A DNA stretch of 39,500 bases from Comamonadaceae bacterium. GTDB lineage: Bacteria > Pseudomonadota > Gammaproteobacteria > Burkholderiales > Burkholderiaceae_C. Position 1 is the stretch's first letter; every line of letters starts with the position of its first letter. The position numbers were made by a program, and so were the translations under genes. The stretch is from contig CANFZL010000002.1 in assembly GCA_947451205.1 (NCBI GenBank), forward strand, positions 1-39,500, read 5' to 3'. The notes under the pieces are model-generated. The model was not told the DNA's origin, made no database searches, and saw only the letters and a program-made list of their open reading frames with translations. This document shows positions 1 to 24,425 of the stretch, one piece after another.

Positions 1-981
1 CTGGTGACGGCCGGGCTGAGCCTCTTGGAGGCGTTGAACACGCTGGCCGATAAAGAGGCTGGGGGACCGAGGCGCGCGCTGCTTCAGGCCGTGGTGCATT
101 CAATCTCCGAAGGCCTTGCGCTGTCGATCGCTTTGGAGCGAGCGGGTGAGTTCCCGCCCCTGCTGATCGCCACCGTCACCGCGAGCGAGCAAACCGGTGA
201 CATCGCGACCGCGCTGCTGCGCTACTCCGAGCACCAGCAAGGTCTGCAAACCTTGCGTGACAAGGTGATCGGTGCGGCGATTTACCCCATGCTGCTGTTG
301 GGCGTCGGCACCGTGGTCGTGTTCTTCTTGCTCGGCGTTGTCGTGCCCAAGTTTGCCGTTCTGATCGCGAGCTCTCGGACCGAGTTACCTTGGTCGTCGC
401 GCCTGCTGATGTCATGGGGCCAGTTCGCGTCGGGCCACGCGCAGTACCTGCTCGGCTTTGCCGCAGTGGTCATCGCTGTGGTTGTCATGGCTTGGCGCGC
501 AGCGGCCTCCGCTGGCTTCAAGTCAGGCTGGATCGAACGCCTGCCCTTTGTCGGCTCGCTCGCCCGCCAGTTTCGCCACGCTCAGCTTTATCGCAGCACC
601 GGCATGCTCCTGCGCGGAGGCATTGCCGCACCGCGCGCGCTGCAGCTCAGCGCCAGCTTGCTCGGTGTTGAGGACCAGCGCCGGCTGCACCGGGCTATTG
701 CGCTGGTGCAAGAAGGCAAGGACATCAGCAGCGCGCTCAAGGGCGCGCAGCTCGCCGACACCATTGCTTCGAGCATGCTGGCCGTGGCGCAGCGCACCGG
801 CAGCCTGTCCGAGGTGCTGGAGCGCATCGCCATGTTTTACGAAGCGCGACTGCGCCGTTCTATCGATGTCGGCAGCCGGCTCTTTGAGCCCATTTTGATG
901 ATCTTCATTGGTCTCGTGATCGGTGCCATCGTGGTGTTGATGTATTTGCCCATCTTCGATCTGGCGTCAAGCCTGCAGTGA
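1..981 (+). CDS. Type II secretion system F family protein (GspF/PilC/MshG-like), 5' end outside window
   Basis: Two T2SSF-like halves (LLEALNTLADKEAGG..., LYRSTGMLLRGGIAAPRALQ...) and the C-terminal membrane segment FEPILMIFIGLVIGAIVVLMYLPIFDLASSLQ; open at the window edge. Confidence 0.92.
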   Translation: MVTAGLSLLEALNTLADKEAGGPRRALLQAVVHSISEGLALSIALERAGEFPPLLIATVTASEQTGDIATALLRYSEHQQGLQTLRDKVIGAAIYPMLLLGVGTVVVFFLLGVVVPKFAVLIASSRTELPWSSRLLMSWGQFASGHAQYLLGFAAVVIAVVVMAWRAAASAGFKSGWIERLPFVGSLARQFRHAQLYRSTGMLLRGGIAAPRALQLSASLLGVEDQRRLHRAIALVQEGKDISSALKGAQLADTIASSMLAVAQRTGSLSEVLERIAMFYEARLRRSIDVGSRLFEPILMIFIGLVIGAIVVLMYLPIFDLASSLQ

Positions 982-985
982 CCAC

Positions 986-2746: not shown

Positions 2747-3500
2747 CCGGGTGCAGCTGGTGCTGCGCCCACAAGGAATTTTCGCGGCTCGCAGCCATGT
2801 CGGGCTGCGCGCTGTCGAGCGCATCACGCGCCATGCTTTGCCCGAAACAGACCGTTGGGAACAGGCTGAGCTGCTCGGTGCCGCAGCGCTAGTGCTGTCT
2901 GAACTCGACGCCGTGCGCAGCCTGCGCGGCACGCCATTGGACGTTGTCGTCGGTGATGAGTTTGCACACCTCGATGTCGTTCGCGGTGACTTCTTCGTGC
3001 AGACCGATCGGCAGATCGAGCTGCTTGCGCAGGCTTGGGTTGCGGAAGTCCTGGGCAGCGTTGTCGCAGCGCGTTCCATACGCTGGCAACTCCAGCAGGG
3101 CAGTGAGCACCTGTTGGTGGCCACGCTCAACATGCCCCTGCTGCAAGCGATCCATGAGATGGCGCTGGTGCTGGGCATGCGACTGCGCCGCGTCGAGCCG
3201 CTGTTCGCCGCGTGCTGGAATGCGCCGGGCAACCGGTTGCAGGCTGCGGGCGAATGTTTGTTCGCTTGCGCCGAGCTGGGCCACGCGGTCATCGCCTCGG
3301 TGCACAAGGGGGTCATCACCGGCCTGAGCCAAGGGGCTGTGACCCCAGATACGCAGGGCTTAGACCGGCGTGCCGACCGGCTGCTGGCATCGCTGGGTCG
3401 TGACCCAGCCGCGCTGGAGCGCAATGTGCTGACCGGGTACTTTGAAGCAACGGGTCCACGCTGGACGCAGCTGTCTTTGCCCCAAGGGTTGCAACGATGA
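2727..3500 (+). CDS. Hypothetical protein in PilM/MshI position of the secretion cluster
   Basis: GTG start at 2727 preceded by GGAGGA, overlapping the gspE stop; ends 4 nt into the next ORF; position between the ATPase and a PilN-like gene. Confidence 0.7.
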   Translation: MLRRWNDRVQLVLRPQGIFAARSHVGLRAVERITRHALPETDRWEQAELLGAAALVLSELDAVRSLRGTPLDVVVGDEFAHLDVVRGDFFVQTDRQIELLAQAWVAEVLGSVVAARSIRWQLQQGSEHLLVATLNMPLLQAIHEMALVLGMRLRRVEPLFAACWNAPGNRLQAAGECLFACAELGHAVIASVHKGVITGLSQGAVTPDTQGLDRRADRLLASLGRDPAALERNVLTGYFEATGPRWTQLSLPQGLQR

Positions 3501-4042
3501 AACTCTCAAAAATCGCGCTGAATTTCGGCCCCAAGACGAGGCCTATTCACCAGTTGGCATGGTGGGTTGCGGCTCTGGGCGTCGTGCTGACCATCGCCGC
3601 CACGTCGCAATTGGCGCAGTCGCTGCAAGACGCGGCGCAGCAAGATGAGGCCTTGGCTAATGCGGCGCTGCGTGAACGCGCCCAGGCCCGACCTGCAGTC
3701 AGGTCTGCGGCTTCGCTCGATCCTGTCGTCATCGCGCGCAATCGTTCTGCGCTGCAGGTCATGGCCCGGATGAAGACGCCGTGGAATGAACTGCTGAACA
3801 ACCTAGAAGCCCTGACGACGGCTCAAATCGCGCTGCTGTCGGTAGAGCCGATGCCGCAAAGGGACACGGTGAGGCTTGTCGTCGAGGCTGCCAGCGTAAC
3901 CGACATGCTCGATTATCTGGAATCGCTGCAGGCCCGTAGCGGCTTGACAGAGGTCAGCCTGGTCTCGCACCAGACACAGCTGCTGCAGCCCGGCAAGCCG
4001 GTGCGCTTTCAGGTTCAGGGCACTTGGCGGACGCACCCATGA
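3497..4042 (+). CDS. PilN/MshJ-like inner-membrane assembly protein
   Basis: Single N-terminal TM segment, then a PilN-like C-terminal half (NNLEALTTAQIALLSVEPMPQRDTVRLVVEA...MLDYLESLQ); ATG overlap with neighbours. Confidence 0.7.
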   Translation: MKLSKIALNFGPKTRPIHQLAWWVAALGVVLTIAATSQLAQSLQDAAQQDEALANAALRERAQARPAVRSAASLDPVVIARNRSALQVMARMKTPWNELLNNLEALTTAQIALLSVEPMPQRDTVRLVVEAASVTDMLDYLESLQARSGLTEVSLVSHQTQLLQPGKPVRFQVQGTWRTHP

Positions 4043-4575
4043 AGTATTTTTTTCTGCGCTGGAGTCTGGGGCTGCACCGCCGCCTTGGCTGGGCCGGCAT
4101 TCTCGCCATCGTTTTCAGCGCTGCAGCCGCGAGTCTGTGGATGGGGTCACTGCAGATGCAGCATCGTTCGCAGACATTGGCCGAGTCCCATTTGCCGCAT
4201 CCGGTGAACGCCGTCGTGAAGACGCCTGTTGCGGCGCTGGAGCCCTGGCAACAGCTCGCCACGGAGTTGCCTGCGTTTGACGACAACGCAGGCGACCTCA
4301 AACGCATCTTCGCGATCGCCAAGCGCCGCCACATTGCGCTCGACAAAGGGGACTATCAGTTGCTGCGCGACCCGCAGTTGCGGTCGACGAGTTTCGGTGC
4401 TTTGTTTCCAATGCGTGACAACTATGCCAACATCAAAGGCTTCGTCGCTGATGTGCTGCAGGCCTTGCCCTACGCCGTGCTCGAGGAGCTGGCATTCGAC
4501 CGCGGCGATGCATCGAGCCCGCAGCTTGACGCGCGTGTGCGCCTGACCGTCCTCTACCGGGGAGTGGTTGAATGA
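4039..4575 (+). CDS. PilO-like inner-membrane assembly protein
   Basis: ATG at 4039 (MKYFFLRWSL...), single TM, position after the PilN-like gene. Confidence 0.55.
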   Translation: MKYFFLRWSLGLHRRLGWAGILAIVFSAAAASLWMGSLQMQHRSQTLAESHLPHPVNAVVKTPVAALEPWQQLATELPAFDDNAGDLKRIFAIAKRRHIALDKGDYQLLRDPQLRSTSFGALFPMRDNYANIKGFVADVLQALPYAVLEELAFDRGDASSPQLDARVRLTVLYRGVVE

Positions 4576-5132
4576 AAAAAAGAATTTTTTCCGGGCGCGG
4601 CTTACTCCTGTTGCTCGCAGGCTTGGTCAGCTTCATCGGCGCAGTACGGCTGTCGCCTGGGCACGAAGCCCCCGATACCGTTGGCTCGACGCAGGCTGCG
4701 ACAAAACTTGTGCCCGCCGACCTTGAGCCCCATGTCGCGGTAGAGCCAGCGCCGGATGCAGTTGTCCCTTTAGATTCTGCTGCTGCGGCCCCAGAGCGTA
4801 TAGCCACCGTCGCTCCGCAGGCCGACCCTTTCGGGCCGCGCAGCTGGCTGCCACCGCCGCCTCCCCCGCCGCGTGTTGCCGAGCTTGCGCCGTCACCACC
4901 GCCAGCGCCGACAGCGCCCGCGCTTCCTTTCAGCTTTATCGGCCAGATCGAAAACAGCGGCGGCTCACCCAAGGCATTCCTGACCCACCGCGAATCTCTC
5001 CACATCGTCGCCGCGGGAGACCTGGTTGAAAAGGTCTACCGCGTCGAATCCATCATGCCGACCAAGGTGGTCTTGACCTATCTCCCCATGATGCAAGAGC
5101 AATCAATTAACCTGACCGGGCCGGCCCGATGA
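4572..5132 (+). CDS. PilP/GspC/MshK-like periplasmic linker protein with Pro-rich segment
   Basis: N-terminal TM, PPPPPPP linker, C-terminal FSFIGQIENSGGSPKAFLTHRESLHIVAAGDLVEKVYRVESI. Confidence 0.65.
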   Translation: MKKRIFSGRGLLLLLAGLVSFIGAVRLSPGHEAPDTVGSTQAATKLVPADLEPHVAVEPAPDAVVPLDSAAAAPERIATVAPQADPFGPRSWLPPPPPPPRVAELAPSPPPAPTAPALPFSFIGQIENSGGSPKAFLTHRESLHIVAAGDLVEKVYRVESIMPTKVVLTYLPMMQEQSINLTGPAR

Positions 5133-7342
5133 CCATCCGTTTAAGCCTTTTGACACCTAGCCACTTGGGTGCGCCAACCAGCGAGCTGTACCCCGTGCGC
5201 TGCGCGCTGATCGTCCTGGTCAGCCTGATGCTGGCCAGTTGTGCCGGCACGATGCATCACTACGAGGGCATGCGCTTGGCCGCCGCCGGCAAGCGCGACG
5301 AAGGCCTTGAGCAGCTGCGCGCAGCGCATGCCGACGAACCGAGCAATCCGCGCTTCGAGATTGACTTGCTGAAGCAGCAGGCAGCATTTGCTCTCGACTT
5401 GATCAAGCAGGCCGACATCGCGCGAGATCAGGCCCGCAGCGACGAGGCGATCGCGCTGTACGCGCATGCCCTCAAGGTTGACCCGAGCAGTGACCGCGCG
5501 CGCCAGAGCCTGGCGGCACTGAAGCTTGAGGCGCGGCAATCTAGGCTGCTGGTCGAGGCCGAAAGCCTGCTCAAGGACGGGCAGCTCGACGTGGCCCGTT
5601 TGCGTATCAAGGGCGTTCTCACCCAGAGTCCCAGCAGCCAAGCCGCGCAAAGCCTGCTCGAAGCCGTTAACCAAGCCCAAGAAAAAATCGACAGCGCGAA
5701 GGCCGCACGCTTAGCGGCACAGTCGGTGCTGCGCAAACCCGTCTCGTTGCAGTTCCGAGATGCCAATCTGCGCATGGTTTTCGAGGCGCTGTCTCGCACC
5801 ACGGGCCTGAATGTCATCATGGACCGCGACGTGCGCGCAGACCTCAAGACAACGATCTTCGTCAAGGACGCCACGGTCGAAGACACGGTCGATCTGATTC
5901 TTTTGCAGAACCAGCTTGAAAAGCGCGTCATCAATGCCACCACGCTGCTGATTTATCCCAGCACGCCGGCCAAGCAAAAAGATTACCAAGATCTGCAGGT
6001 TCGCATGTTCAGCGTCACCAATGCCGACGTCAAATACATGCAGACTTTGCTCAAGAGCGTGCTCAAGTTCAAGGAGGTCTCGGTAGACGACCGCACAGGC
6101 ATGCTGGTGATTCGCGACACTCCGGATGCCATTGCGGTGGCCGCTAAGGTGATTGCGGCGCACGACGTGGCAGATCCCGAGGTCATGCTCGAGGTTGAGG
6201 TGATGGAAATTTCCAGTAATCGCGCAAGCAATCTGGGTGTGCAGTTCCCGACGTCGCTCACCCTGTCGGCACCGTCGTCGAGCTTGACCGTCGGTGGCCT
6301 CAGGGCCTTGGCACCGAGCAGCCTGATCACCTCGCCGTTGTCGGCAACGCTGAACCTGCAACTCCAAGATGTCGACACCAACTTGCTGGCCAGTCCGCGC
6401 ATTCGCGCGCGCAACAAGGAAAAGGCGCGCATTTTGATCGGCGACCGCATCCCGACGATCACCAACACGGTGACGCCGGTGACGACCGGCACGCCGGTGA
6501 TCACCGGCACCGTGACATACCAAGAAGTTGGCCTGAAGCTGGAGTTCGAACCACAGGTCTACAGCAACCATGACGTGGGCATCAAGATCAACCTAGAGGT
6601 CAGCAACATCGTCCAGCAGTTCACTGACGCGCAAGGCGGCAGGTCCTACCAGATCGGCACCCGCAATGCGCAGACCAGTCTGCGGCTGCACGACGGCGAG
6701 ACCCAGATTCTGGGCGGCCTCATCTCTGATTCTGACCGCAACAGCGCGGATCTGATTCCAGGGCTAGGCCACTTGCCGATGATCGGTCGGCTGTTTGGCA
6801 ACAACAACGGTTCGCGTGGAAAGAGCGAGATCGTCATGTCGATCACGCCTCGCATCGTGCGCGCACCGGCAGTCAACGATCCAGAATTGCGCGAAGTTTT
6901 CTCAGGCACCGAATCCAGCATGCGCGAGCGACCGCTGCGGCTTGAAGCTATCGGCGAACTGCGTCTACCGAGCCCAACACCCGCACCGTCGATACCCGCA
7001 CTTGTTCCCGCGCCAGTCCCAGCAGCAGCGTCCGCAGTTGCCCCTGTCATTGCACCTTCAACTTCACCTGCACCTACACCTGCACCTGCACCTGCACCTG
7101 TCGCGCCTCCGGCAACACCCCCTCCCGCTGCAGCGCAGTCTGTCAACTCTGCACCGACAGAGCCAGCGCCCGAACTCTCGCCCGCGGAACAGCTTCGCAA
7201 CAGACGCCGTCCGCCGATCGTGCCCTACTTGGGTATCGTTCCAACACCGCCGCAAGCTGCACCGCCTCCGGCAACCGTCACCGCGCCTGAAGAGCCGAGC
7301 GCATTGCAGTCCATCAACGCAATGGAGCAGGCAGACGCATGA
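5129..7342 (+). CDS. Secretin (GspD/PilQ/MshL family) with N-terminal TPR region
   Basis: Lipobox-like LMLASCAG, TPR-like N-terminus, secretin core VQFPTSLTLS...LASPRIRARNKEKARILIGDRIP...GLKLEFEPQV...GGLISDSDRNS...PGLGHLPMIGRLFG...IVMSITPRIVR. Confidence 0.94.
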   Translation: MTIRLSLLTPSHLGAPTSELYPVRCALIVLVSLMLASCAGTMHHYEGMRLAAAGKRDEGLEQLRAAHADEPSNPRFEIDLLKQQAAFALDLIKQADIARDQARSDEAIALYAHALKVDPSSDRARQSLAALKLEARQSRLLVEAESLLKDGQLDVARLRIKGVLTQSPSSQAAQSLLEAVNQAQEKIDSAKAARLAAQSVLRKPVSLQFRDANLRMVFEALSRTTGLNVIMDRDVRADLKTTIFVKDATVEDTVDLILLQNQLEKRVINATTLLIYPSTPAKQKDYQDLQVRMFSVTNADVKYMQTLLKSVLKFKEVSVDDRTGMLVIRDTPDAIAVAAKVIAAHDVADPEVMLEVEVMEISSNRASNLGVQFPTSLTLSAPSSSLTVGGLRALAPSSLITSPLSATLNLQLQDVDTNLLASPRIRARNKEKARILIGDRIPTITNTVTPVTTGTPVITGTVTYQEVGLKLEFEPQVYSNHDVGIKINLEVSNIVQQFTDAQGGRSYQIGTRNAQTSLRLHDGETQILGGLISDSDRNSADLIPGLGHLPMIGRLFGNNNGSRGKSEIVMSITPRIVRAPAVNDPELREVFSGTESSMRERPLRLEAIGELRLPSPTPAPSIPALVPAPVPAAASAVAPVIAPSTSPAPTPAPAPAPVAPPATPPPAAAQSVNSAPTEPAPELSPAEQLRNRRRPPIVPYLGIVPTPPQAAPPPATVTAPEEPSALQSINAMEQADA

Positions 7343-7980
7343 ACGCCACTCGTGAGCGGATTCGCAGCGTTTCAGCAGGCGGGTTCACGCTGATCGAACT
7401 GCTCGTCACGCTGGCGTTGGTGGGGCTGGTTGCGCTGGTCGCCGTGCCGCTGACCGAGATCAGCTCGCTGCGACAGAAAGAGTTTGACTTACGTCTTAAC
7501 CTGCGCACGATCCGTGTTGCGCTGGATGCTTACAAAGCGGGCGTCGACGCCGGGGAGATCGCTCGCGAGACCGGCGCCTCGGGCTATCCACCCACGTTGG
7601 AGGTGTTGGTGAATGGTGTGGACGCCGTGGCCAAACCAGCCCCGCCCGGACCGAATGCGGGCACGCTGGCGCGCACATCGCCGCAGTGGGATATGCCCGG
7701 CTCAACGAGCACGGGTATGTTGGCGCGCACATCGCAGCTGTGGGATGCGCCGGCCACGCCGGCGTCTGCTGCGAGCGCGCCAGCCAAGCGTTATTACTTT
7801 CTGCGCAAGGTGCCACGCGACCCATTCTTCGAAGGCGATGCGGTTGAAGCCTCGCAGACTTGGGTACTGCGCAGCTACGCCAGCCGGCCCGACAGTCCGC
7901 AGCCCGGCGCCGACGTTTTCGACGTGACGTCGAAGTCCAACCGAACAGCGCTGGACGGCACGCCGTACAGCAGCTGGTGA
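7339..7980 (+). CDS. Type II secretion pseudopilin (GspG-like) with internal duplicated insert
   Basis: Prepilin cleavage motif GGFTLIELLVTLALVGLVALVAVPL; C-terminal YYFLRKVPRDPFFEG. Confidence 0.9.
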   Translation: MNATRERIRSVSAGGFTLIELLVTLALVGLVALVAVPLTEISSLRQKEFDLRLNLRTIRVALDAYKAGVDAGEIARETGASGYPPTLEVLVNGVDAVAKPAPPGPNAGTLARTSPQWDMPGSTSTGMLARTSQLWDAPATPASAASAPAKRYYFLRKVPRDPFFEGDAVEASQTWVLRSYASRPDSPQPGADVFDVTSKSNRTALDGTPYSSW

Positions 7981-7991
7981 CTAAGCCATTT

Positions 7992-8396
7992 ATGCGACTG
8001 CGACACTGCTCAAATATCCCGCAAGGCTTCACGCTGATCGAACTGATGGTGGTGATGGTGCTGATCGCTCTGTTGCTGACGATTGCCGTGCCGCGCTACT
8101 TCGGCCTCATCGACGGCGGACAAATCAAGGTTCAGCAACAGAACCAAGCCGTGATGCGCGACGCCATCGACAAGTACCACGGTGATCAAGGGCGCTATCC
8201 AGACACGCTCAATGACCTGGTCATGAAGCACTATCTGCGCGAGATTCCGGTGGATCCAGTGACGCAAACGCGGAACTGGATCACCGTGGCGCCGCGTGAA
8301 GGCAGCTTGGGTGCGGTGTACGACGTGTTGTCGACTAAACCGAATGTGCCTACCAAGCCCAACGTGTCCGCCGACATGGCGACCGCTGCGCCATGA
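7992..8396 (+). CDS. Type II secretion pseudopilin (GspG/PulG-like)
   Basis: ATG at 7992; GFTLIELMVVMVLIALLLTIAVPRYFGLIDGG; C-terminal GSLGAVYDVLST. Confidence 0.9.
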   Translation: MRLRHCSNIPQGFTLIELMVVMVLIALLLTIAVPRYFGLIDGGQIKVQQQNQAVMRDAIDKYHGDQGRYPDTLNDLVMKHYLREIPVDPVTQTRNWITVAPREGSLGAVYDVLSTKPNVPTKPNVSADMATAAP

Positions 8397-8980
8397 AGTG
8401 CTGGCGCGCAGGGCGCAGCCCATCCAAAACCCAGCGCCAGCACGGCATCGTACTGCTCGCGCTGATGATCTTGCTGGCCTTGGGGGGACTGAGCGCGATG
8501 ATCGCCATCGATGTCTGGCAGGTCTCGCGCCAGCGCGAGCGCGAACAAAACTTGCTGTTCATCGGTGCGCAGATGACGAAAGCGCTTGAGCACTACTATT
8601 ACTCAGCCCCTGCAGGTCAGCCGCGCTTGCTAACGTCGTCAATGGGCGACTTGCTGCAAGACCCTCGATATCAGGTGCCGGTGCGGCACTTGAGACGCAT
8701 TTACATGGACCCGATGACGGGTGAAAACGCCTGGGTGATAGAGCGTGTCGGTCGTGGCATGGGCGTGCACAGCTTGTCAGAGGCCGAGCCTCTGAAGCAG
8801 GCGGGCTTCAACAGCGCCCTCAGCACCTTCAATGGCAAGAAACGCTACAGCGAGTGGGTCTTTGTGTACACGCCCCCGCTCATCGCCGGTAATGTTCAAT
8901 CCGCCCCGGTCATCAATCAACCGGGCCCATCCGTCCTCAAATCAACGCCTCTATCGAAGGGCAATCCATCATGGCGCTAG
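8393..8980 (+). CDS. Pseudopilin-like / type II secretion protein
   Basis: HGIVLLALMILLALGGLSAMIAIDVWQVSRQREREQNLLFIGAQMTKALEHYY. Confidence 0.75.
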   Translation: MKCWRAGRSPSKTQRQHGIVLLALMILLALGGLSAMIAIDVWQVSRQREREQNLLFIGAQMTKALEHYYYSAPAGQPRLLTSSMGDLLQDPRYQVPVRHLRRIYMDPMTGENAWVIERVGRGMGVHSLSEAEPLKQAGFNSALSTFNGKKRYSEWVFVYTPPLIAGNVQSAPVINQPGPSVLKSTPLSKGNPSWR

Positions 8981-9672
8981 GGGTCGTTCTTGTCGATGCA
9001 ATGTCACTCTTCAGGCACGGCGTTGGTGCCTTGCTTGCAGGTTTGCCAGAGTTCAATGTGCTGGGCGACTGCAGCGATGGCAAGGCCGCGCTGCAGTTGG
9101 TGAGCCGGTTCAAACCCGACCTGATCGTCATGGATGCGTCGCTGCCGGGTCTGAGCGGCATCGACGTCACGGTTCAAATCAAACGTCGCAATCCTGAGGT
9201 GGGCATCGTCTTGCTGACCGAACACAAGTCGGACGACTACGTCATGCAAGCGCTGCGCAGTGGGGCTGATGGCTATGTCCTAAAGACCACGTCATTTGAC
9301 GAACTGGTGGGTGCCATGCGCAGCGTTGCGCGGGGCAAGAAGTTTTTGAGCCCAGAGGTGTCGGCCTTCGTCGTCGACAGCGCCCTGCATCCTAAATCGG
9401 CCGCGACCCGGTTCGCTGGCCTACAGCTACTGACCCGGCACGAGCGCAGCATCATGCAGTTGATCGCCGAGGGGCGCACCAATCGAACGGCTGCTGAGTT
9501 CCTCAGCAGGAGCCCGAAGACCGTCGAGAAGCACCGCTCCAACCTGATGCGCAAGCTTGGCCTGAACAATAGCGCTGAGCTGGTTTTGGTGGCGATGGAA
9601 ATGGGCTTGGTCGAGCGACCCATCTCGGTGTCACGGCTGATGAACAACGCCAGTCAGCCGATCTCTGCATGA
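8971..9672 (+). CDS. LuxR/NarL-family DNA-binding response regulator
   Basis: REC domain (DLIVMDASLPGLSG, VLLTEH, GYVLK) and LuxR HTH (LLTRHERSIMQLIAEGRTNRTAAEFLSRSPKTVEKHRSNLMRKLGL). Confidence 0.93.
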   Translation: MALGVVLVDAMSLFRHGVGALLAGLPEFNVLGDCSDGKAALQLVSRFKPDLIVMDASLPGLSGIDVTVQIKRRNPEVGIVLLTEHKSDDYVMQALRSGADGYVLKTTSFDELVGAMRSVARGKKFLSPEVSAFVVDSALHPKSAATRFAGLQLLTRHERSIMQLIAEGRTNRTAAEFLSRSPKTVEKHRSNLMRKLGLNNSAELVLVAMEMGLVERPISVSRLMNNASQPISA

Positions 9673-9685
9673 ACTGATTGAATTA

Positions 9686-10366
9686 CTACTTGGCGGCGAT
9701 CAAGGTCCGGTAGTGACCGACCAGATCTTCCGCCGAGGCCAATCCCTCGATGCGCAACCAAGGCTGCCCTGGTGCCTTGCGAAACAAGGTCAGCGGTTCA
9801 TGGTTCATCTTGTCGCCCCGAAAAGCCGAGAAGGCCTTTTGCGCGGCAACGCTGTTGGCTGCCGAGCCGGTGTAGAAGTTCCATTGCGAGCCGGCTTTGT
9901 AGCGCGCTGCATAGTCTTTCAAACGCGCTGGTGTGTCGTGCTCCGGGTCGATGGAAATGGAGACCATGTGCAACTTCGCACTGTCGGCGCCGAGTTTTTG
10001 TTGCACGTCAGTGAAGACGTGGCTCATGACCGGGCAGATCGTCGTGCAGCTCGTGAAGATGAAGTTCATCAGTACTGCGCGTGGGTCACTGAGTTCGGTG
10101 GCCAGGTCGACCGCACGGCCGTCGGCGCGCACCAGCTTGATCGACGGCACCTTGTAGTCAACGGTCTTAGCCGTCGTAGAAGTTGCGGAGGTTGTGGTCG
10201 AGGCCGCTTGCATCATGTGATGGTGAGAAGCATGCGGGTCCATCGGCGAATCCGCAGCGTGGACGGTTTGTACGCTCAGGCAGAGGGCGGTCGATGCGCC
10301 GATTGTGGTCAGGCTCCGTGCCCAGCCACGTCTCAAAATAAGCCATTGATATTGACGATTGTTCAT
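9686..10366 (-). CDS. SCO1/SenC copper chaperone family protein
   Basis: MNFIFTSCTTICPVMSHVFTDVQ (CxxxCP), HMVSISIDPEHDTPARLKDYA. Confidence 0.93.
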   Translation of the reverse strand: MNNRQYQWLILRRGWARSLTTIGASTALCLSVQTVHAADSPMDPHASHHHMMQAASTTTSATSTTAKTVDYKVPSIKLVRADGRAVDLATELSDPRAVLMNFIFTSCTTICPVMSHVFTDVQQKLGADSAKLHMVSISIDPEHDTPARLKDYAARYKAGSQWNFYTGSAANSVAAQKAFSAFRGDKMNHEPLTLFRKAPGQPWLRIEGLASAEDLVGHYRTLIAAK

Positions 10367-10403
10367 GATCTTTCCTGGGTGTGCTTTGTGTTCATCAAGG
10401 GGC

Positions 10404-10802
10404 TCATTGAGCCGGGGAGGGATCTGGCTTAGCCGCCATGGACTTGATGGACTCGTCGCTCTTTTTCTGATTGGCCTCGACCTCGGCCTTGCGCGCCGCG
10501 ATCATCTTGCGCCGTACGTTGGTCTCGAGTTCACTGACCAGTCTGCGTACCTCTATCTCAGACATCTGCATCGGACCGCTCTGGCTGGCGTCGCGCAGGC
10601 CTCGGATCAGCTGGTCGAGGTCGAAGGCGACGTTCTGCGATTTGAAGTTGCGAACCATGTCTGCGCCCACGGCATAACTGGTCATTTCCAGCGGCGTAGT
10701 CATGCCCGCAATTTTTTGCGAAGCAGCAGGCGCTTCTTGCGCTGCAGCGGCCGCAGTCAGTAACAACAGGGTGGTGGTCAAGGCAAAAAATCTGAGATTC
10801 AT
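10404..10802 (-). CDS. Stand-alone FKBP N-terminal (Mip dimerisation-like) domain protein, no PPIase domain
   Basis: Signal peptide MNLRFFALTTTLLLLTAAAAAQ; TSYAVGADMVRNFKSQ...LIRGLRDA...MSEIEVRRLVSELETNVRRKM parallels the N-domain of the FKBP encoded at 12648..13355. Confidence 0.75.
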   Translation of the reverse strand: MNLRFFALTTTLLLLTAAAAAQEAPAASQKIAGMTTPLEMTSYAVGADMVRNFKSQNVAFDLDQLIRGLRDASQSGPMQMSEIEVRRLVSELETNVRRKMIAARKAEVEANQKKSDESIKSMAAKPDPSPAQ

Positions 10803-10857
10803 AAAGGACTCCGTGGGGTTGACGTTCGAGGTTTTGAGATTGAAAAATTGATATGGC

Positions 10858-12651
10858 TCAGGGCACTGTCCAGTCGGAGTCGGCCACCAACGCGCCGTCT
10901 GCACTGACGTGCACGATGTACGCCCCTTTGGAGGCGAAGCGCTGGCCGGGACCGAGCGACAGCCGTGGGTAGATCGACGTTCCGGTACTGTCACCCAGGG
11001 CAAAAGCGCGACGCTGGGTCGCCACCGCGCTGGACGCATCGGCGATTGCCGAACCGTGCGCGAGCTCTGCGTTGACGACCGTACGACCTGCACGGCCCAG
11101 CGTGTGGCGGTCGCGGCTTTCCTGCTCTGCCTTGCCACTCTCACGCTTGCTCACCATGTCTTGCGCGCGTTCAATCAGGTAGTCGCGATACAGGTTGTCG
11201 AGCATGTCCTGCAAGGTATCGGTCATCAGATTGAGGGCGAAAAACACCTCAGACTGCAGCACCTCGTCCACCAGGGGAAGGTCGCGCAGTTTCAGCCAAG
11301 AATGCAAGTAGGCCAAATTGGCCTCGCGCTTGTGAGGCAGCTCGTAGGGGTAGACCCACTGCACCACCGACCGCCATCCCGGCGCAAGTTGTTGGGTGGT
11401 GCTGGCCTGCGTCAGGCTGCTCGACAGGTAGAACTTGACACCGCTTGGCGGCGTCATGCCGGCGAGCCACTCCAGTTGTGGCGCGTTCAGCCACAGGGCG
11501 ACGGCGTCACCTGCGCGCACTTGTTGCAGCGCGCGTCGCAGCCCGGACGGGCCCGCGTCCGCCGCTAAGGACAAGCTCTGCACGTTGCGTCCTTGAGTGC
11601 GTGCACTCTGGTCAAAGGCCTGCGCCGCCACACCACCCGCGTGGCTGGCCTGCATTTGCAACAGACGCTTCGGTGCAGCGTTGTGTGTGCCGAGCAGTTC
11701 GCGCGCCAACACCGCTGCTTCCAGCGACACCCCGCGTGAAAAGTACAAACCATAAGTTGCATTTGCATCTGCTGCCCCGGCCGACGGTACGCCGACGCTT
11801 GGAAACCAGCAGGGCACTTGTTGCGCCTGACAAAACGCATCCACGGGTGCCCAGGTTGAATCGCTGAGTCCGGAGAGCAGCGCGAACACCGGCCAGTCGC
11901 GGTAATGTTGTTGCAGTTGTGCGCCCCAAGTCTGCGGTGCACCCGTCAGCTCCCAGACCTGCAACTCCCAGCGACGCTCGGTCTGTGTCACAAAACTAGC
12001 CGCTGACGACATGTACCGTTTGCGCGGCGCTGTGCTGCTGTTCTTAGCGACCAAAGCCGACTGCAGCATGGCCTTGAAGATGGCGCGTCGCGCATCGGAC
12101 ACATCAGGGGTGATGACTGTGGCAAAGCGAATTGTCTGCTTGCTGACGCCAGGCGAGTAGTCGGACGAGAGCTGCTGCAAGTAGGCCTTGAGCGCAGACA
12201 TGTCGTGGGCATCCAGCGCAAAATGCGGCATCACTGCACTCAGCGTTCGCCCGTCAATGCCAATCCCTTGGCGCAGCGCTAAGGCCAGTGTTTCATCGCC
12301 ATAAGGGGCGTGCGTCTGGTTGAGCGTCTTGCCTCGGCGCCCGTCCATATTGGCCATCACCAGATCGCCCTCTTGGGCAAACAGATAGCGTCTGCCGATG
12401 GGCGACACAGGCTGCGATCCCTCCACACTGCCCATGCCGCTGGCACGGTGACAACCCATACAAGCCGCCTGCGGCCCGCTCAAGCTGACTGTTCCATCAC
12501 GCGTGGCCTGCAAGGGTTGACCTGACACGCGTACACCCTCGACATAGATGCGCCGGCCCTGTTCTACAAGGTCGGGTTCGGCCGCAGTTGCTGCCACTGC
12601 TATCAGCAGTGGCAGCAACAAGGTCCAAAAACGAACGGTCGTGAACATCAT
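10858..12651 (-). CDS. mofC: MofC-like c-type cytochrome with C-terminal periplasmic-binding-protein-like region
   Basis: Signal peptide, single haem motif CMGCH, cytochrome c fold residues through MPHFALDAHDMSALKAYLQQL; then an ABC-substrate-binding-like region (IRFATVITPDVSDARRAIFKAML...); 4-bp overlap with the FKBP gene. Confidence 0.72.
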   Translation of the reverse strand: MMFTTVRFWTLLLPLLIAVAATAAEPDLVEQGRRIYVEGVRVSGQPLQATRDGTVSLSGPQAACMGCHRASGMGSVEGSQPVSPIGRRYLFAQEGDLVMANMDGRRGKTLNQTHAPYGDETLALALRQGIGIDGRTLSAVMPHFALDAHDMSALKAYLQQLSSDYSPGVSKQTIRFATVITPDVSDARRAIFKAMLQSALVAKNSSTAPRKRYMSSAASFVTQTERRWELQVWELTGAPQTWGAQLQQHYRDWPVFALLSGLSDSTWAPVDAFCQAQQVPCWFPSVGVPSAGAADANATYGLYFSRGVSLEAAVLARELLGTHNAAPKRLLQMQASHAGGVAAQAFDQSARTQGRNVQSLSLAADAGPSGLRRALQQVRAGDAVALWLNAPQLEWLAGMTPPSGVKFYLSSSLTQASTTQQLAPGWRSVVQWVYPYELPHKREANLAYLHSWLKLRDLPLVDEVLQSEVFFALNLMTDTLQDMLDNLYRDYLIERAQDMVSKRESGKAEQESRDRHTLGRAGRTVVNAELAHGSAIADASSAVATQRRAFALGDSTGTSIYPRLSLGPGQRFASKGAYIVHVSADGALVADSDWTVP

Positions 12652-13355
12652 TGTTTTGAAGGCACCAAGCCGACCAGTTCCAGGTCGTACACCAGCAGTT
12701 CATTGGGGCCAATGTCACTGCCCACGCCGCGCTCGCCGTAGGCCATTTGAGGCGGGATCCACAGCGTCCAATGCGAACCGACGCTCATGTTTTTGATACC
12801 GGCGCGCAGTCCGTTGAACAGGTCATAGAGCTTGGCCGTGCCGGGTCTATCGCCCTCTGTTCCGTCAAACTGAGTGCCGTTGAGCAGCGTCCCCCGGTAC
12901 TTGATCTGCACGCCATCGGCGTCCTGTGGCTGCGCGCCTTGCCCAGCCTGTAACACCTTGTACTGCACGCCGCCGGCCAGCATCATGACGCCTTCTTTGT
13001 TTTGGTTTTTTTGTAAAAATTCTTCAGCCTTCTTGCGGTTATCTGCGGCCAAGATTCGGCTGTTCGAGGCCATGCGTTGGCGCACCTGGTTTTGGAACTC
13101 TGCGATGACCTTGCGGAATTCTTTTTCGGACAGCTGCGGTCGTTCACCGGCCAAGCCGTCTTGCATGCCGCGCAGCACCATGTCGGGCTTGAGCGGCGAT
13201 TCATTTTTCTTGAAGTTGCGCGCCACTTCCATTCCGATGCTGTAGCTCAACTTGTCTTGATCACGGAGTTCCTGACGCTCCTCGGCGCGTGCGCCCATCG
13301 GTATCATGGCTATCGTCACCAGCGCTATCGCGATCAACTTATTCATCTTGTCCAT
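12648..13355 (-). CDS. mofB: MofB-like FKBP-type peptidyl-prolyl cis-trans isomerase (secreted)
   Basis: Signal peptide, FKBP_N region (LSYSIGMEVARNFKKNE), FKBP core (VQIKYRGTLLNGTQFDGT...LRAGIKNMSVGSHWTLWIPPQMAYGERGVGSDIGPNELLVYDLELVGL). Confidence 0.9.
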   Translation of the reverse strand: MDKMNKLIAIALVTIAMIPMGARAEERQELRDQDKLSYSIGMEVARNFKKNESPLKPDMVLRGMQDGLAGERPQLSEKEFRKVIAEFQNQVRQRMASNSRILAADNRKKAEEFLQKNQNKEGVMMLAGGVQYKVLQAGQGAQPQDADGVQIKYRGTLLNGTQFDGTEGDRPGTAKLYDLFNGLRAGIKNMSVGSHWTLWIPPQMAYGERGVGSDIGPNELLVYDLELVGLVPSKQ

Positions 13356-13386
13356 ACATGGCTATTGGTTAGATTGGTTGTTCAAA

Positions 13387-13416
13387 AACGGCGCCACCCT
13401 TGCAGGTGACGCCGTT
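13387..13416 (-). terminator. Intrinsic terminator downstream of the mofA-like gene
   Basis: Minus strand reads AACGGCGTCACC-TGCAAG-GGTGGCGCCGTT followed by TTTG; 12-bp stem with one G.U-type pair and a T run (13384..13388 AAAAA on + strand). Confidence 0.75.
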
Positions 13417-13430
13417 GATGTCTGAGGCGC

Positions 13431-16400
13431 TTACTTCAGAGAAGTCCTAGCCACAGTCAGCGTCGCACCGTTGGCCGAGTTGCCGACAGCGTTGACCGAA
13501 CGGACCCGGAAGTACGCTGATGCACTAGGTGCCGTCGGCGATGTCGTACCCCGGGCCACTGCGGCAAACGTTGCCGTTTGCGCAGCGGTCAAGGCGGTAC
13601 CCGCTGGAACCGTCACTGTCTGCGTCACCAAGCCGGTAGTGAAGCCGGTGTTGGTGGCGTAGTCAATGTAGAAGGTCGTCACCGGTTGGCCGTTCACCGT
13701 GTTGGCCGCTGGCGTCCAGTTCACCGTCACCGTGTCAGTTGCCAAGCTGGCTGTGTTCAGCGTCGCTGTGCCCAAGGTCGGCGCTACCGCTGTCGTCGGC
13801 ACGGTGTTCACCACTGTCTTGCTGGTTCCAGTCACCGAGCTTCCTGCCGCGTTCACTGCCTTGACGTTGAAGTTGTAGGTAGATCCCACAACCGTCGTCG
13901 CCGTGTAGCTGGTGGCGTTGGCTGCCACGGTCGCCAGCACCGTGGTGCCGTTCAACACTTGGTAGCCAGTGATCGCCGGCGCACCTGCCGCGACTGACGC
14001 AGCGGTCCAAGACACACTGGTCGACGTTGGGCTCACAAAGGTTGCAGTTGGTGCTGCAACCGTCGTCGGCACGGTGTCCGACACCAGCGTGCTGGTGTTG
14101 GACGCTGCGCTGCTACCGATCAAGTTGACTGCTTTCACCGAGAACACGTAGGTGTTGCCGGCCACCGTGGTCACGTTGGCCGTGGTGGCTGTAGCGGCGG
14201 TGTTGGCACCCATTTGTAACGCGGCAGCGCCGTTCACCGAAGCCCAGATCTGGTATGCGGTCACCGCCGGTGTGTTGGCCGTCGCAGTTTCAGACCAGGT
14301 CACAGCAGTGACTGTGGCGCTGGTGAATGTTGCGCTGGCCAGCACCGGTGCAGCTTGCACCACCAAGTTGGCGGTGGTCGTCGCGGTCGATGCCGAGGCT
14401 CCGACTACGTTCATGGCCAGCACGGTGTAAGTGTGAACGCCTGGTACGGTGGTGTCTGTGTAGGTCACGGCATTCCTGCCTGTGGTCGTGACCAGCACGC
14501 CATCTCGGTAGACCTGGAAGCCGGTAACGGCTGGGCCCGCGTTGACGGTCTCGGTCCAGTTCAGCTTCACGGTCGGTGCGGCGGCCGTTCCGCCGTACAC
14601 ACTGGCAGCCATCACTGGTGCGGCTTGCACGAGGTAGGCGGCGGTCTGCGTTGCCGATGGGACCGAACTGACCAGCACGCTGCCCACCGTTTCGGTTGCC
14701 ACGATGCGATAGAGGTAGGTCGTTCCAGCCACCACCGTGGCATCCGCAAAGACCGTCGTCGTGCGACTGGCCGTGGTACCAACCTGAGTCCACGTCACGC
14801 CGTTGTCAGCCGACCGCTGCACCGCATAGCCAGTCACCGGGGCGGCGCTGGCGGACCAGTTCACGGACACCGAGCCGGCGGAGATCACCGGCGCTGCGGT
14901 GAACGCTGGCGCTGCAAGCACTCCTGCCACCGCCACACTCACCGTCGCGGGAACCGACTTGTTGATCGGGCCGTTCGAAGCGATGACTTGGTAGGTATAG
15001 GCACTGTTAAGGGCCGCCGTGGTGTCCACAAAGGTGGCTGCCGTCACCGCGCTGGACAGCACGGCGAACACGGTGGATGCGTTGGTGCAATTGGCATTGA
15101 GTGCCGATTGCAGGCAGCGGGTCACGGTGTAGGACGTGACCGTTCCCGCGGCCGGGGCCGTCCAGTTCAAGGTGACTGAAGCTGCTCCTGACGTGGTTTG
15201 GGCGCCGGTCAGCCCGGAGATCACACCCGCCGCCGCATAGGGCGTGGTCACCGTTGCCGTCGATGCGGTGCTGACGTTCGGGCCGTTGACCCACTGCACG
15301 CTGTAGGTGTAGCTGGTGTTTTGCGCTGCGGTGGTGTCGACAAAGCTGTTGGCGACGCCCGCAGGAACCGGCAGTGTCACCGTGGTGGCACCGTTGGTAC
15401 GCTTGATGACGTATGCCGTGGTCGACGAGCCCACAGGCTGAGCTGGCCAAGACACGGTCACCGAGCTTGCGCTGTTTGCCGCTAAGGTCACCGTCCCCAC
15501 GACAGGCGGCAACGCATAGGCCGCCAAAATGGTGACGGCACGGGCCGTTCCCACGCTGGTACCGTTGAGCGCCTGCACCGCATAGCTGTAGGTATGACCG
15601 GCGACCGTGGTGTTGTCCAGGTAGCTTGTGATGGGTGACGTGATGGTGCCGGACAACGGGTTGATCACTTGGGCGATTGCGAACGTGGCTGGGGCGCCAG
15701 CCACCAAGGGAGCGATCGACACATCGGTACGCACGATCTGGTAGGCGGTGACGAATGTCGCGGATGGTGCTTGCCAGTTCAACTGGACCGCTGCGCCGTT
15801 CTGGGTGCTGGCGGTCGGGCTGACCGTCATGGCCGGAGCCGGTGCCCAGTTGGTGTTAGCCACGACCAGCGTCGATGCACTTTGCTGCGTGCCGTTCATG
15901 CCGACGATCGAGTAGGTGTAGGTCGAGGTCTGCTGCACACCCGGGTCGGTGAAGGTGGTCGCATTGCTCGGCGCTGTAAAGCTGACAGGCAGTGTCGCCG
16001 TGCCGTTGGCCGTGAAGCCACCCGTCCGGGTGATGACATAGCCGCTGGCAGGGGCCGTCGCCGTGGTCCAGGTCAGGGTAACCGGGAAGCCGCCGACGAT
16101 GGCGGTCTGACCGGTCGCCACCACTTCATTGACTGTCGGATTCCACGCACCCACCGATGCGGCCAGACTGTTGACCGGACTGGGCGCACCCACCGTGATC
16201 GAGGGCGTGGAATAACCTGCCGGGTTGAAGGCCACCACACGGTATTGCGTGCTAGGCACCGGCGCGACCACATCGCTCCACGACGTGGCGTTGGCTGGCG
16301 TCACCGTGACCATCGCGTTGGCAGGGTTCTGGGTGCCTTGGGCTGCAGTTTGCGGAATGGTCGAAGGCAGTGACGGAGTCGTCCATTTGCCGCTGACAAT

Positions 16401-19400
16401 GTTGGCGTTCCAAGTTATTCCGTCGTCAGACCGTTGGACCAAGAAGCCGTTTTCGTTCTTTTTGTTGCCTGGCGTTGTTGCCAAGCCCGCCGGGGTCGGG
16501 TCTGTCCATGAGACCGTTTGGGTGCTGACATCGAACGTAACGCCACTCACCACGTCCGGCTTGACGGCGCCAAAGTTAAACGAGATGACCCGCATGAAGT
16601 CATTTTCTTCATGGCCGAGGATGTGGCAGTGCCAGATGTACTCCCAGTCGAAGTTGTGCATCTCATTCACCACCGTGGTGGCCAGCCCAGTGTTCGGGTC
16701 AACTTGACTGAACCCGGTGGACACGCCGAGTGGTTGGGTCGGGTCTAGGGCCCGGACCGATTGCGGCACACCGAAGGGCGCCTTGGGCGTCTTCGGCCTG
16801 ACCGCCACATAGATGTCCTCCAGCGGATTCATCTTCACTGTTTCCTTCCAGCCGAATTCAGCCGGGTCCAGTGCCACCACAGTGCCATCCCAGCCCACGC
16901 GGTTGATGACCTGCACATTGAACAGGTGGAAGTGCACCGTGTGGGTGTCGACGCCGTTGTGGGTCACCTTCCAGATTTGTGTCTCGCCGTCAGCAATTTG
17001 CTCAGTCGGCGGGTCGACATAGCCCACTGGAATGGTGGTCTGCGTGAGCACCGAGGTATAGGGCAACTCAATCGAGAAGGTCGCGTTCATGCGGCCGTAA
17101 TTCTGGTCAAACAGCTCCTGGATGCCCTTGTTTTGAACCTTCCATGACTGGGTTGTAGAGGTGATGACTGAGGCGGCTGCACCGATGCCGCCGGTGTTGG
17201 TGCCAGCGGCGCCGTTGGTCAACACCACCGAAGGCGCGCTGACGTACGGGCCGCCTGCGCTGTCGAGCACGATGCTGGACAGGCGCTGGCCGGCCACGTC
17301 GATGACAGCGTGCGCTTTGGCTGCAACAGCAGTTGGAACGGCCGGGTCCAGACCACCGACCAGGGTGACGGTGGGAACAGTTGTGTAGCCCGTGCCCTGG
17401 CTGTCGATCGAGAAGCCGGTGACGACCTGGGCGCCGGGCGGCGAGAAGCTGAAGTTAGGCTGCTGCGTGGTGCCGGCATAGATGCGCCCCAAGTTGTCTT
17501 GAAAGGTCTTGCCGTAGGCTGCGCTTTGCCAGGATTCGGTAACGATGGGTACATCCTGCGAGGCGGCAAAGGCTGCAGGCAAAGCGGCGGCAAAGGGGCC
17601 GCCATCGCCGGCAGGGTCTAGCGCCGGTGCGGGAGGCGCTCCGCCGGCTTGGGTGGCCGCCACATTGATGCGCATCATCGTGCGCGTGTTGGGCCCCTGG
17701 CCTGGCAATGTGGTGGGCGCACCGCCTGTGCCGGACTGGTCGACGTCACCGGTGTAGTAGTCGACGCGGGCGTCAAAACCGGGATTGGGCGCCGGGGAAT
17801 CGTTGTACAGAATCAGGGTCTTGCCCGCGTATTGCGAGAAGTCGACGACGAAGTCAGCACGCTCGGCTGGGCCTACATACAGGCCATGGTCCAGCACGTT
17901 CAACACCGTGACGATGCGTCGCAGTTGTTGATAAGACACCGGGGTGGAAGGGATCACGTTGGGCATGGCGAGAAAGCCGCCTTCGGTGCCGATCTGAATG
18001 ATGTTGGGGCCGACCGCTGTCGGATCAGGAATACCGCCCGGCCGACCATCGTAGGTATTGACACCATAGGGCGTCGCGCCGGCTGGCGCCACGGCAGGCA
18101 CCATAGGAACTTCAGTGTTGACCGAAGCGATGGCCGTGGCGGCCACGCCGGTGGCCGGTGCGGCGATGGTCACTGTGGGCGCTCCGCTGAAAGGAATGCT
18201 GACCGCGACGTTGCTGAAATCGACCACCGCGCCGGTGCCGTCGATCACCGCCGTGGCGGTTGCCGCACCGGTGCCACCCGTCGGCGCAGTGATCGTGACA
18301 GTCGGCGGGGAGCTGTAGCCGCTGCCGCCGTTGGTCAGGCCCAAACTCAGCGGCTCGGCCACATACAGACCCAGGTTGACATAGCGTTGGCCGTCGGCAT
18401 TGAGCAGGCGGAATCGGTAAGCCTTGGGTTCAACATTCAGCTTGGGATAGGCCACGCCGTTGATCAGCGGGGTGTCGTTGTAAGCCTCCTGCACAGCGCT
18501 GACGTTGTCCACGTCACCGGCTGGCAGGGCCAGCGGCGCAGGGAAGACGGGCCAGAACCAAGGGCCGTAGTCCCAGCGACCGGCGGGGTTGGTGCCGTCT
18601 TGGGAGTTGGGGTTTTGGTTGGCCTCGTACACGTGGGGGAACCACAGGTCGCCATAGGCGCCCCAACGCGGCTTGGGGTTGCCAGCGGCATCAACATTCC
18701 ACTTCGCATCTTGAATGTTGATGTCCTTCGGGACGAAGGTCTTGGTTTCGTAGATCAGGGGGATTTCGTCCATGCCCGCCAACGCGCCGCCAGCAGCTTT
18801 CATGGTGGCTTCGGTCGTATCGTGAATCAGGAAGGCCGACACAATGCCCGCGTAAACGTTGGTGCGGGTGGCTGCATAGGTGTGGTCGTGGTACCACTGC
18901 ATGCGCGAGCTCTGATTGTTCGGGTAGTAATAGGTTTGAGTGCCGGCGCCAAAGTCGGGCATGTCGGGCACGTTTTGTGTGGTTTCACCGCGCAAGTAAG
19001 GGGTGCCGGTTTCACCTGCCGGGGTGATCCAGGAGTGTGGCTCACCGTCCGAGATCCAGGGTGTGTCACCACCGTGCAGGTGAATCATGACCCGGTTTTG
19101 CGAGTACATCTCGGTCGCCAGCGGCGCGGCTGGATTGGCGGCACCGAGGGGGCCGAGTCCTGCGCCGGGGACGGTCGTGTCGGTCGGAATAAAGAGATCG
19201 CCGCCACGGGTGTTGGTCAGCGGATCAAAACGACCCGTCGGCAGGTAGTTGTCAAACCTCAAGCGCACCGGGACGCCTGACTGGCTGTCGATGATGGGGC
19301 CGAGGTAATGTGGCTTGTCGCCAACGCCGAAAACGACATTTCCTTTGTTGTCAAGAACAGGGGTTCCGTTCAAGTAGAACAGCTGGTAAGTGGGTGTCCC

Positions 19401-19928
19401 AGAGGGCAGGTTGGCCGTGGCAATTTGCACATAGCCTCGCAGCGTTGTGCCTCCGCTGACCTTGTTGCCGGTCTTGACGGTGGCGGGCAGATCGGAGTGA
19501 AGTTGTTCGCGGTATTCGACCACGGCGATTTCGTAGTAGTCGGCATCAGGAAAGGTCGTGGAGTGTCCGTTGGGTCCAACTTTTTCTTTGACCGCCAACG
19601 GAATGTGTCTGCCCAGCAGGCTGGGGTTGGCTGCCAGCAGCGCAGGGTTGGTGGTGTAACCGTCGACCATCGGCAGGCTGTCGACAAACTTTCGCAACGC
19701 GTTACCTGTGTCGCGTGTGGCGCCAGCCGCGGCGTTGGGGCTGTAGTCAGTCTGAATGCCTTGCGGGCTGTTGGCATAGAAGGTGCCTTGCTTGAAAGGC
19801 GTGCCTGATTTGTCAATGTTGTCTGCCCAACCGGCTCCAGCATGAGCCTGCTGCATGGCCAATGGCGCTGAAATCGCGATCATGACGGCCAAGGCAATTT
19901 GGCTGTGGGTGAAATTAAGAACTCTCAT
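13431..19928 (-). CDS. mofA: Giant MofA-like multicopper oxidase (putative Mn(II) oxidase) with about 10 C-terminal fibronectin type III-like modules
   Basis: Four copper motifs intact: HLHG (about 19071..19082), WYHDH (about 18882..18895), HTVHFHLF (about 16925..16945), WHCHILGHEENDFM (about 16592..16640). Signal peptide MRVLNFTHSQIALAVMIAISAPLAMQQAHA. Start at 19928 fits the AGGA spacing better than 19934. Confidence 0.88.
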   Translation of the reverse strand: MRVLNFTHSQIALAVMIAISAPLAMQQAHAGAGWADNIDKSGTPFKQGTFYANSPQGIQTDYSPNAAAGATRDTGNALRKFVDSLPMVDGYTTNPALLAANPSLLGRHIPLAVKEKVGPNGHSTTFPDADYYEIAVVEYREQLHSDLPATVKTGNKVSGGTTLRGYVQIATANLPSGTPTYQLFYLNGTPVLDNKGNVVFGVGDKPHYLGPIIDSQSGVPVRLRFDNYLPTGRFDPLTNTRGGDLFIPTDTTVPGAGLGPLGAANPAAPLATEMYSQNRVMIHLHGGDTPWISDGEPHSWITPAGETGTPYLRGETTQNVPDMPDFGAGTQTYYYPNNQSSRMQWYHDHTYAATRTNVYAGIVSAFLIHDTTEATMKAAGGALAGMDEIPLIYETKTFVPKDINIQDAKWNVDAAGNPKPRWGAYGDLWFPHVYEANQNPNSQDGTNPAGRWDYGPWFWPVFPAPLALPAGDVDNVSAVQEAYNDTPLINGVAYPKLNVEPKAYRFRLLNADGQRYVNLGLYVAEPLSLGLTNGGSGYSSPPTVTITAPTGGTGAATATAVIDGTGAVVDFSNVAVSIPFSGAPTVTIAAPATGVAATAIASVNTEVPMVPAVAPAGATPYGVNTYDGRPGGIPDPTAVGPNIIQIGTEGGFLAMPNVIPSTPVSYQQLRRIVTVLNVLDHGLYVGPAERADFVVDFSQYAGKTLILYNDSPAPNPGFDARVDYYTGDVDQSGTGGAPTTLPGQGPNTRTMMRINVAATQAGGAPPAPALDPAGDGGPFAAALPAAFAASQDVPIVTESWQSAAYGKTFQDNLGRIYAGTTQQPNFSFSPPGAQVVTGFSIDSQGTGYTTVPTVTLVGGLDPAVPTAVAAKAHAVIDVAGQRLSSIVLDSAGGPYVSAPSVVLTNGAAGTNTGGIGAAASVITSTTQSWKVQNKGIQELFDQNYGRMNATFSIELPYTSVLTQTTIPVGYVDPPTEQIADGETQIWKVTHNGVDTHTVHFHLFNVQVINRVGWDGTVVALDPAEFGWKETVKMNPLEDIYVAVRPKTPKAPFGVPQSVRALDPTQPLGVSTGFSQVDPNTGLATTVVNEMHNFDWEYIWHCHILGHEENDFMRVISFNFGAVKPDVVSGVTFDVSTQTVSWTDPTPAGLATTPGNKKNENGFLVQRSDDGITWNANIVSGKWTTPSLPSTIPQTAAQGTQNPANAMVTVTPANATSWSDVVAPVPSTQYRVVAFNPAGYSTPSITVGAPSPVNSLAASVGAWNPTVNEVVATGQTAIVGGFPVTLTWTTATAPASGYVITRTGGFTANGTATLPVSFTAPSNATTFTDPGVQQTSTYTYSIVGMNGTQQSASTLVVANTNWAPAPAMTVSPTASTQNGAAVQLNWQAPSATFVTAYQIVRTDVSIAPLVAGAPATFAIAQVINPLSGTITSPITSYLDNTTVAGHTYSYAVQALNGTSVGTARAVTILAAYALPPVVGTVTLAANSASSVTVSWPAQPVGSSTTAYVIKRTNGATTVTLPVPAGVANSFVDTTAAQNTSYTYSVQWVNGPNVSTASTATVTTPYAAAGVISGLTGAQTTSGAASVTLNWTAPAAGTVTSYTVTRCLQSALNANCTNASTVFAVLSSAVTAATFVDTTAALNSAYTYQVIASNGPINKSVPATVSVAVAGVLAAPAFTAAPVISAGSVSVNWSASAAPVTGYAVQRSADNGVTWTQVGTTASRTTTVFADATVVAGTTYLYRIVATETVGSVLVSSVPSATQTAAYLVQAAPVMAASVYGGTAAAPTVKLNWTETVNAGPAVTGFQVYRDGVLVTTTGRNAVTYTDTTVPGVHTYTVLAMNVVGASASTATTTANLVVQAAPVLASATFTSATVTAVTWSETATANTPAVTAYQIWASVNGAAALQMGANTAATATTANVTTVAGNTYVFSVKAVNLIGSSAASNTSTLVSDTVPTTVAAPTATFVSPTSTSVSWTAASVAAGAPAITGYQVLNGTTVLATVAANATSYTATTVVGSTYNFNVKAVNAAGSSVTGTSKTVVNTVPTTAVAPTLGTATLNTASLATDTVTVNWTPAANTVNGQPVTTFYIDYATNTGFTTGLVTQTVTVPAGTALTAAQTATFAAVARGTTSPTAPSASAYFRVRSVNAVGNSANGATLTVARTSLK

Positions 19929-20076
19929 GGGCATATTCCTAGGTTGTTAAGTTGGTTTGTCATCAAGTCCGAGCTCCCAGCTGAGCGTCCATATCGACCT
20001 GATGACGGGATGTCATTTGCAAAATTAAAATAATCTTTCAAATAAGAATTATTGAAGATTCGACTGTATGGGTCAC

Positions 20077-20835: not shown

Positions 20836-20908
20836 ATAGATGAGTTTGGAAGTATTGAGTATTATTTAAGCGTATAAATTGTTGAAATATAAAAAGGAAG
20901 ACTTAATT

Positions 20909-24410: not shown

Positions 24411-24425
24411 TTTTTTGAGAAAAAA

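Follow-up and report, generated by a model that had tools for sequence, protein, structure and literature searches.

Does the gene row around a giant multicopper oxidase in a Comamonadaceae bacterium encode a Mn(II)-oxidation system that is complete in itself, or does the oxidase rely on neighbouring genes to reach the cell surface? We addressed this question in a stretch of 39,500 nt (the window, analysed as a whole) from an uncultured, 78.5%-complete MAG. A sequence-only reading of the same DNA had called the row a mof-type Mn(II)-oxidation operon extended by a Sco1 chaperone and an FKBP-N protein, and had regarded it as self-contained for export, folding, metallation and electron transfer.

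Gene content and conservation of the mof-type operon

Five intact open reading frames lie in a row on the minus strand:

13431..19934, minus strand: mofA/ompB-type multicopper oxidase, 2167 aa (Pfam, copper-ligand check, fold match)
12648..13355, minus strand: mofB-like periplasmic FKBP peptidyl-prolyl isomerase, 235 aa (FKBP_N and FKBP_C)
10858..12651, minus strand: mofC-like protein, 597 aa (cytochrome c domain with a single haem, fused to a type-1 periplasmic-binding-protein fold)
10404..10802, minus strand: FKBP_N-only protein, 132 aa (signal peptide)
9686..10366, minus strand: Sco1/SenC-type copper chaperone, 226 aa (Pfam; CxxxC motif present in the sequence)

Their Pfam matches are, in the same order, multicopper oxidase with fn3, FKBP_N with FKBP_C, cytochrome c, FKBP_N alone and SCO1/SenC. 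The intergenic spacings from the oxidase to sco1 are 75, −4, 55 and 37 bp and are therefore consistent with one transcript for all five genes; promoter and terminator scans gave numbers at about chance level. Two further Comamonadaceae MAGs (L020 and L021), with oxidases ~91% identical to that of the window, carry all five genes in the same order, and dN/dS against the window is 0.09–0.22 for four of the genes and 0.33–0.37 for the FKBP_N gene. Because the order is kept and dN/dS is well below 1, the row is not a product of chance. Open reading frames, Pfam matches and conservation in L020 and L021 thus confirm the five genes at the positions and in the order first proposed. The likeness to mofA-mofB-mofC holds as well in gene content and order (giant oxidase, FKBP and c-type cytochrome on one strand), as found in the mof operons of Leptothrix discophora SS-1 and Rubrivivax A210 (PMC8218464; L072).

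The Sco1 and FKBP-N extension consists of real genes, but its novelty does not hold. The putative mof operon of Rubrivivax A210 has five genes, namely mofA, mofB, mofC, a copper metallochaperone (of the Sco type, as in the window) and an exported protein (PMC8218464), and mofA/ompB clusters with Sco genes have been described in iron oxidisers (PMC5566968). The arrangement is therefore already known and we rejected it as a new one, the difference being that the FKBP_N-only gene of the window replaces the exported protein of A210. With the gene set known before, what the sequence-only reading missed is the neighbouring secretion operon.

Divergent from mofA and 433 bp away is a cellulose-synthase operon (20368–26708; bcsD, bcsP/R-like, bcsQ, bcsA, bcsB). 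It stands beside mofA only in the window, L020 and L021, the other mof loci being without it; coupling of mof and bcs was considered and rejected, and the operon was treated as lineage-specific. A CopD-type copper-resistance protein (35687–36211) is encoded near a P-type ATPase (32963–35581), and a link to copper supply is possible.

Structure and phylogenetic position of the oxidase

The oxidase comprises a Sec-type signal, a CotA-like core (about residues 35–1120; Cu-oxidase_2) with inserted GxGYxxxPxV repeats (537, 847) and an fn3-rich Thr/Ala/Val tail. All 12 copper ligands are kept and the four multicopper-oxidase motifs are intact. CotA laccases are the nearest solved structures by sequence, and CotA is also the best PDB fold match of the predicted model (mean pLDDT 79; target TM-scores ~0.8). 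The three-cupredoxin core and the order of copper motifs are shared with CotA laccase and bilirubin oxidase (PDB: 1gsk, 2bhf), whereas the core of the window oxidase is twice as long owing to its inserts, is followed by the long fn3 tail, and is encoded in an operon with folding and electron-transfer partners.

Homologues for the oxidase tree were taken from 76 loci, with support given as SH-aLRT from quick searches. The window oxidase groups only with L020–L024 (support 100), and the Sphaerotilaceae MofA clade (Rubrivivax A210, Sphaerotilus and G731, probably Leptothrix cholodnii SP-6) forms a separate group with an SH-aLRT of 100 in two trees. Identity to the G731 protein over the core is ~39%, and in comparison with the mof operons of L. 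discophora and A210 the window oxidase is likewise only ~39% identical. Membership in the Leptothrix/Sphaerotilaceae MofA clade was ruled out on these grounds. Homology to the MofA/OmpB superfamily nevertheless extends over the full catalytic core, so by sequence comparison the window oxidase is a member of that broad superfamily outside the Leptothrix/Sphaerotilaceae clade. Plasmid-borne relatives were only weakly similar (~30%), generic multicopper oxidases.

This position bears on the substrate. Homologues from the iron oxidisers Ferriphaselus (49%) and Ferrigenium (50%) are closer to the window oxidase than Leptothrix MofA is, and the fold resembles that of the CotA/bilirubin-oxidase group, which has broad substrates. 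It is therefore a serious possibility, though one that falls short of probable, that the enzyme oxidises Fe(II) or is a laccase-like surface oxidase of general type with no specific link to manganese; support for the deep branching in the oxidase tree is weak. That the row genuinely encodes Mn(II) oxidation, as a functional orthologue of mof of L. discophora, appears doubtful to us. Gene content and order do agree with the published operon, all copper motifs are kept, and one CotA, the closest fold, has Mn oxidase activity (PMC3618234). Against this, the sequence-only reading had itself made placement in the MofA clade the test of its claim, and both trees place the oxidase outside; the label “Mn(II)-oxidation” is thus not established despite the complete set of copper ligands. 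Moreover, published work is divided as to whether MofA-type oxidases form oxides of Mn or of Fe: a role in iron oxidation has been suggested in L. ochracea (PMC11412304), and MofA, as well as MnxG and CumA, gave no Mn(II) oxidation when produced in E. coli (PMC3618234).

MofC-like and FKBP proteins

The mofC-like protein has a single CMGCH haem site at 64. Pfam across homologues and a fold search, used after a comparison of MofC with PDB sequences gave no match, confirmed the fusion of a cytochrome with a periplasmic-binding domain, a combination already described for MofC-like proteins (PMC5566968). The mofB-like FKBP gene is conserved beside the oxidase across loci. The FKBP-N protein of the sequence-only reading is present and is without an FKBP_C domain; its counterparts in L023 and L024 are full length with FKBP_C, and these match it far better than the FKBPs of other loci. 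The most fitting reading is thus that it descends from a second, full-length FKBP by truncation and has kept the dimerisation half.

A type II secretion operon of the Pul/Oxp type adjoins the locus

The set is not self-contained for export, as it includes no gene for carrying a folded protein over the outer membrane. Positions 1–9672 of the plus strand hold a type II secretion system (T2SS) operon, whose end and that of sco1 are 13 bp apart, tail to tail:

1..981, plus strand: T2SS inner-membrane protein GspF (truncated at its 5' end by the window edge)
986..2746, plus strand: T2SS ATPase GspE, Pul/Oxp clade
2346..5132, plus strand: four small genes separating gspE from the secretin gene (2346–3500, 3497–4042, 4024–4575, 4572–5132)
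5129..7342, plus strand: secretin (GspD/PilQ/MshL-like) with N-terminal TPR
7339..8980, plus strand: pseudopilin genes (7339–7980; about 7992–8396; 8393–8980), N_methyl motif in the first two
8971..9672, plus strand: NarL-type response regulator, which closes the T2SS operon and is convergent to sco1

The true start of the first small gene (2346–3500) is probably after 2746. The four small genes had no Pfam match; their order is conserved in L130, L134, L152 and L153, and in the Geobacter cluster (L126) the gene after gspE matches PilM. Homologues of all three pseudopilin genes are present in mof-linked loci.

A tree of 51 GspE-type ATPases placed the GspE of the window and that of Geobacter in one clade (branch length 1.09; SH-aLRT 100, again from a quick search), set apart from other GspE/PilB-type ATPases, including three others from the genome of the window. 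Gene order in the Geobacter cluster matches that of the window, and the cluster adjoins ftsX and an envC-like gene. A passage in PMC3543383, citing Mehta 2006, describes the Geobacter Pul system as lying near cell-division genes and “required for secretion of OmpB”. Since the ftsX and envC-like neighbours match that location, the cluster analysed here appears to be the published Pul/Oxp system, equated by synteny and clade rather than by locus tag. GspE clade and gene order both identify the T2SS of the window as Pul/Oxp type. OmpB of Geobacter sulfurreducens belongs to the homologous oxidase family, with MofC-like and Sco genes near ompB (PMC3543383, PMC5566968), but it has been linked to Fe(III) reduction and not to oxidation.

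Linkage of mofA and T2SS genes across genomes

Loci were fetched by oxidase similarity and not by linkage. Whole genomes, excluding those with broken contigs, were searched for Pul/Oxp GspE and the oxidase, with a distance within about 20 kb counted as linked. Seventeen of the 24 genomes with usable contigs were linked where 0.35 would be expected. Given this exclusion, the non-independence of the genomes and an expectation that assumes random placement, the figures serve as a guide only. Simulations never exceeded five linked genomes in a million. Two unlinked genomes added later changed the count to 17 of 26 (about 0.4 expected). G688 was counted as linked because pseudopilin and regulator genes lie where its contig ends, and L123, labelled unlinked in the GspE tree, is the linked gspE of L080, which was tallied as linked. 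Linkage takes four arrangements relative to the mof operon:

T2SS upstream, co-directional: L064, L069, L072, L026 (gspF moved in L026)
T2SS downstream, co-directional: L023, L030, L033, L037, L051, L052, L080
T2SS divergent: L024, L035
T2SS convergent: window, L020, L021

The mof operon of Rubrivivax A210, a Mn oxidiser, thus also adjoins a Pul/Oxp-type T2SS (L072), upstream and co-directional rather than convergent as in the window; the text of PMC8218464 contains no match to “secretion”, and a search of the open literature found no paper joining mofA to a T2SS gene cluster. The A210 genome (G703) holds five Pul/Oxp-type clusters (L150, L151, L153, L154, L072), only one of them beside mofA.

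The oxidases of the window and L023 are sisters with 82% identity, while their linked T2SS fall into different GspE sub-clades and their sco genes are dissimilar (36%). Because sister oxidases adjoin different T2SS lineages, these comparisons indicate that the pairing of mofA and T2SS has formed repeatedly, and this speaks for a functional role. Could the adjacency nonetheless be coincidental and without meaning for oxidase export? The two operons of the window are convergent and separately transcribed, several genomes are unlinked, and with up to five T2SS copies in one genome (A210) each need not serve the oxidase. Yet linkage in 17 genomes, the four arrangements, the sister oxidases beside different T2SS lineages and the OmpB precedent cited in PMC3543383 make coincidence improbable. 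Linkage and the Geobacter precedent support export of the oxidase by the neighbouring T2SS, which would most likely supply its passage in folded form across the outer membrane.

Among the unlinked cases, the Pul/Oxp-type gspE nearest to a mofA-type gene is ~98 kb away in G731 and ~180 kb away in Ferrigenium; in Sphaerotilus mobilis and others, gspE of this type is likewise unlinked to mofA. At the mof operons of G731 (L155:5284–7128, plus strand), S. mobilis (L081:19019–20350, minus strand) and G732 (L158:15378–16709, minus strand), a secretin gene is convergent to sco1, with the Pul/Oxp-type gspE far away. None of the Methylococcales and Nitrospirota genomes tested showed a Pul/Oxp-type T2SS, and in the Geobacter genomes tested the T2SS is not beside the oxidase. 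The T2SS of the G701 (Rhizobacter) genome, with a GspE 73% identical, is on a contig of 9.4 kb.

Copper-poor and other MofA paralogues

Twelve MofA paralogues from other loci form one clade (SH-aLRT 100) and have lost nearly all copper ligands in a similar way (2–4 of 12 kept):

L030:4420–9792, L033:6788–11854, L034:2356–9690, L035:14993–22234
L037:1284–7217, L040:4231–11517, L041:4998–8534, L048:9866–14839
L052:2087–8206, L057:4374–11138, L060:14753–20899, L070:2286–9827

They usually stand in tandem with an intact partner, and the intact partners form a clade of their own with similar topology. With dN/dS of 0.13–0.36 in seven of them, the copper-dead copies are maintained. A further tandem copy (L055:9965–17044) keeps 5 of 12 ligands and has a separate position in the tree; its ligand loss is apparently a second, independent event. 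A MofA-type oxidase in a single open frame of 4651 aa (L016:469–14421) comes from a genome (G365) with a second copy of 1110 aa ~17 kb away. The conserved pairing of an active and a dead oxidase is worth a separate study.

Proposed export route and its implications

From the gene row, the intact copper sites, the clade membership and the linkage observed here, we infer that the locus is probably an assembly and export system for a surface oxidase that leaves the cell by the T2SS and acts on Fe(II) or Mn(II). The oxidase would enter the periplasm via Sec and fold with MofB, perhaps with the FKBP_N protein as a dimerisation partner, while the Sco protein may help with copper loading. The neighbouring T2SS would then deliver the folded enzyme to the cell surface, where the CotA-like core would use O2 to oxidise Fe(II) or Mn(II) and the fn3 tail may tether the enzyme; MofC, on the periplasmic side, could carry electrons or sense a ligand. 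For the wider family we lean, with some caution, towards betaproteobacterial MofA-type surface oxidases being exported by partner T2SS of the Pul/Oxp type and paired repeatedly with different T2SS lineages.

Should MofA-type enzymes depend on specific partners, namely a T2SS, an FKBP and a Sco protein, this would be a simple candidate explanation for the failure to oxidise Mn(II) in E. coli, and the locus would provide a parts list for co-expression or deletion. If the proposal is true, a neighbouring mofA would single out the metal-oxidase exporter where a genome has several T2SS copies, and would offer a way to study how MofA-type enzymes get to the sheath or cell surface. The locus would also tie the export of OmpB in Geobacter to the metal oxidisers of the betaproteobacteria.
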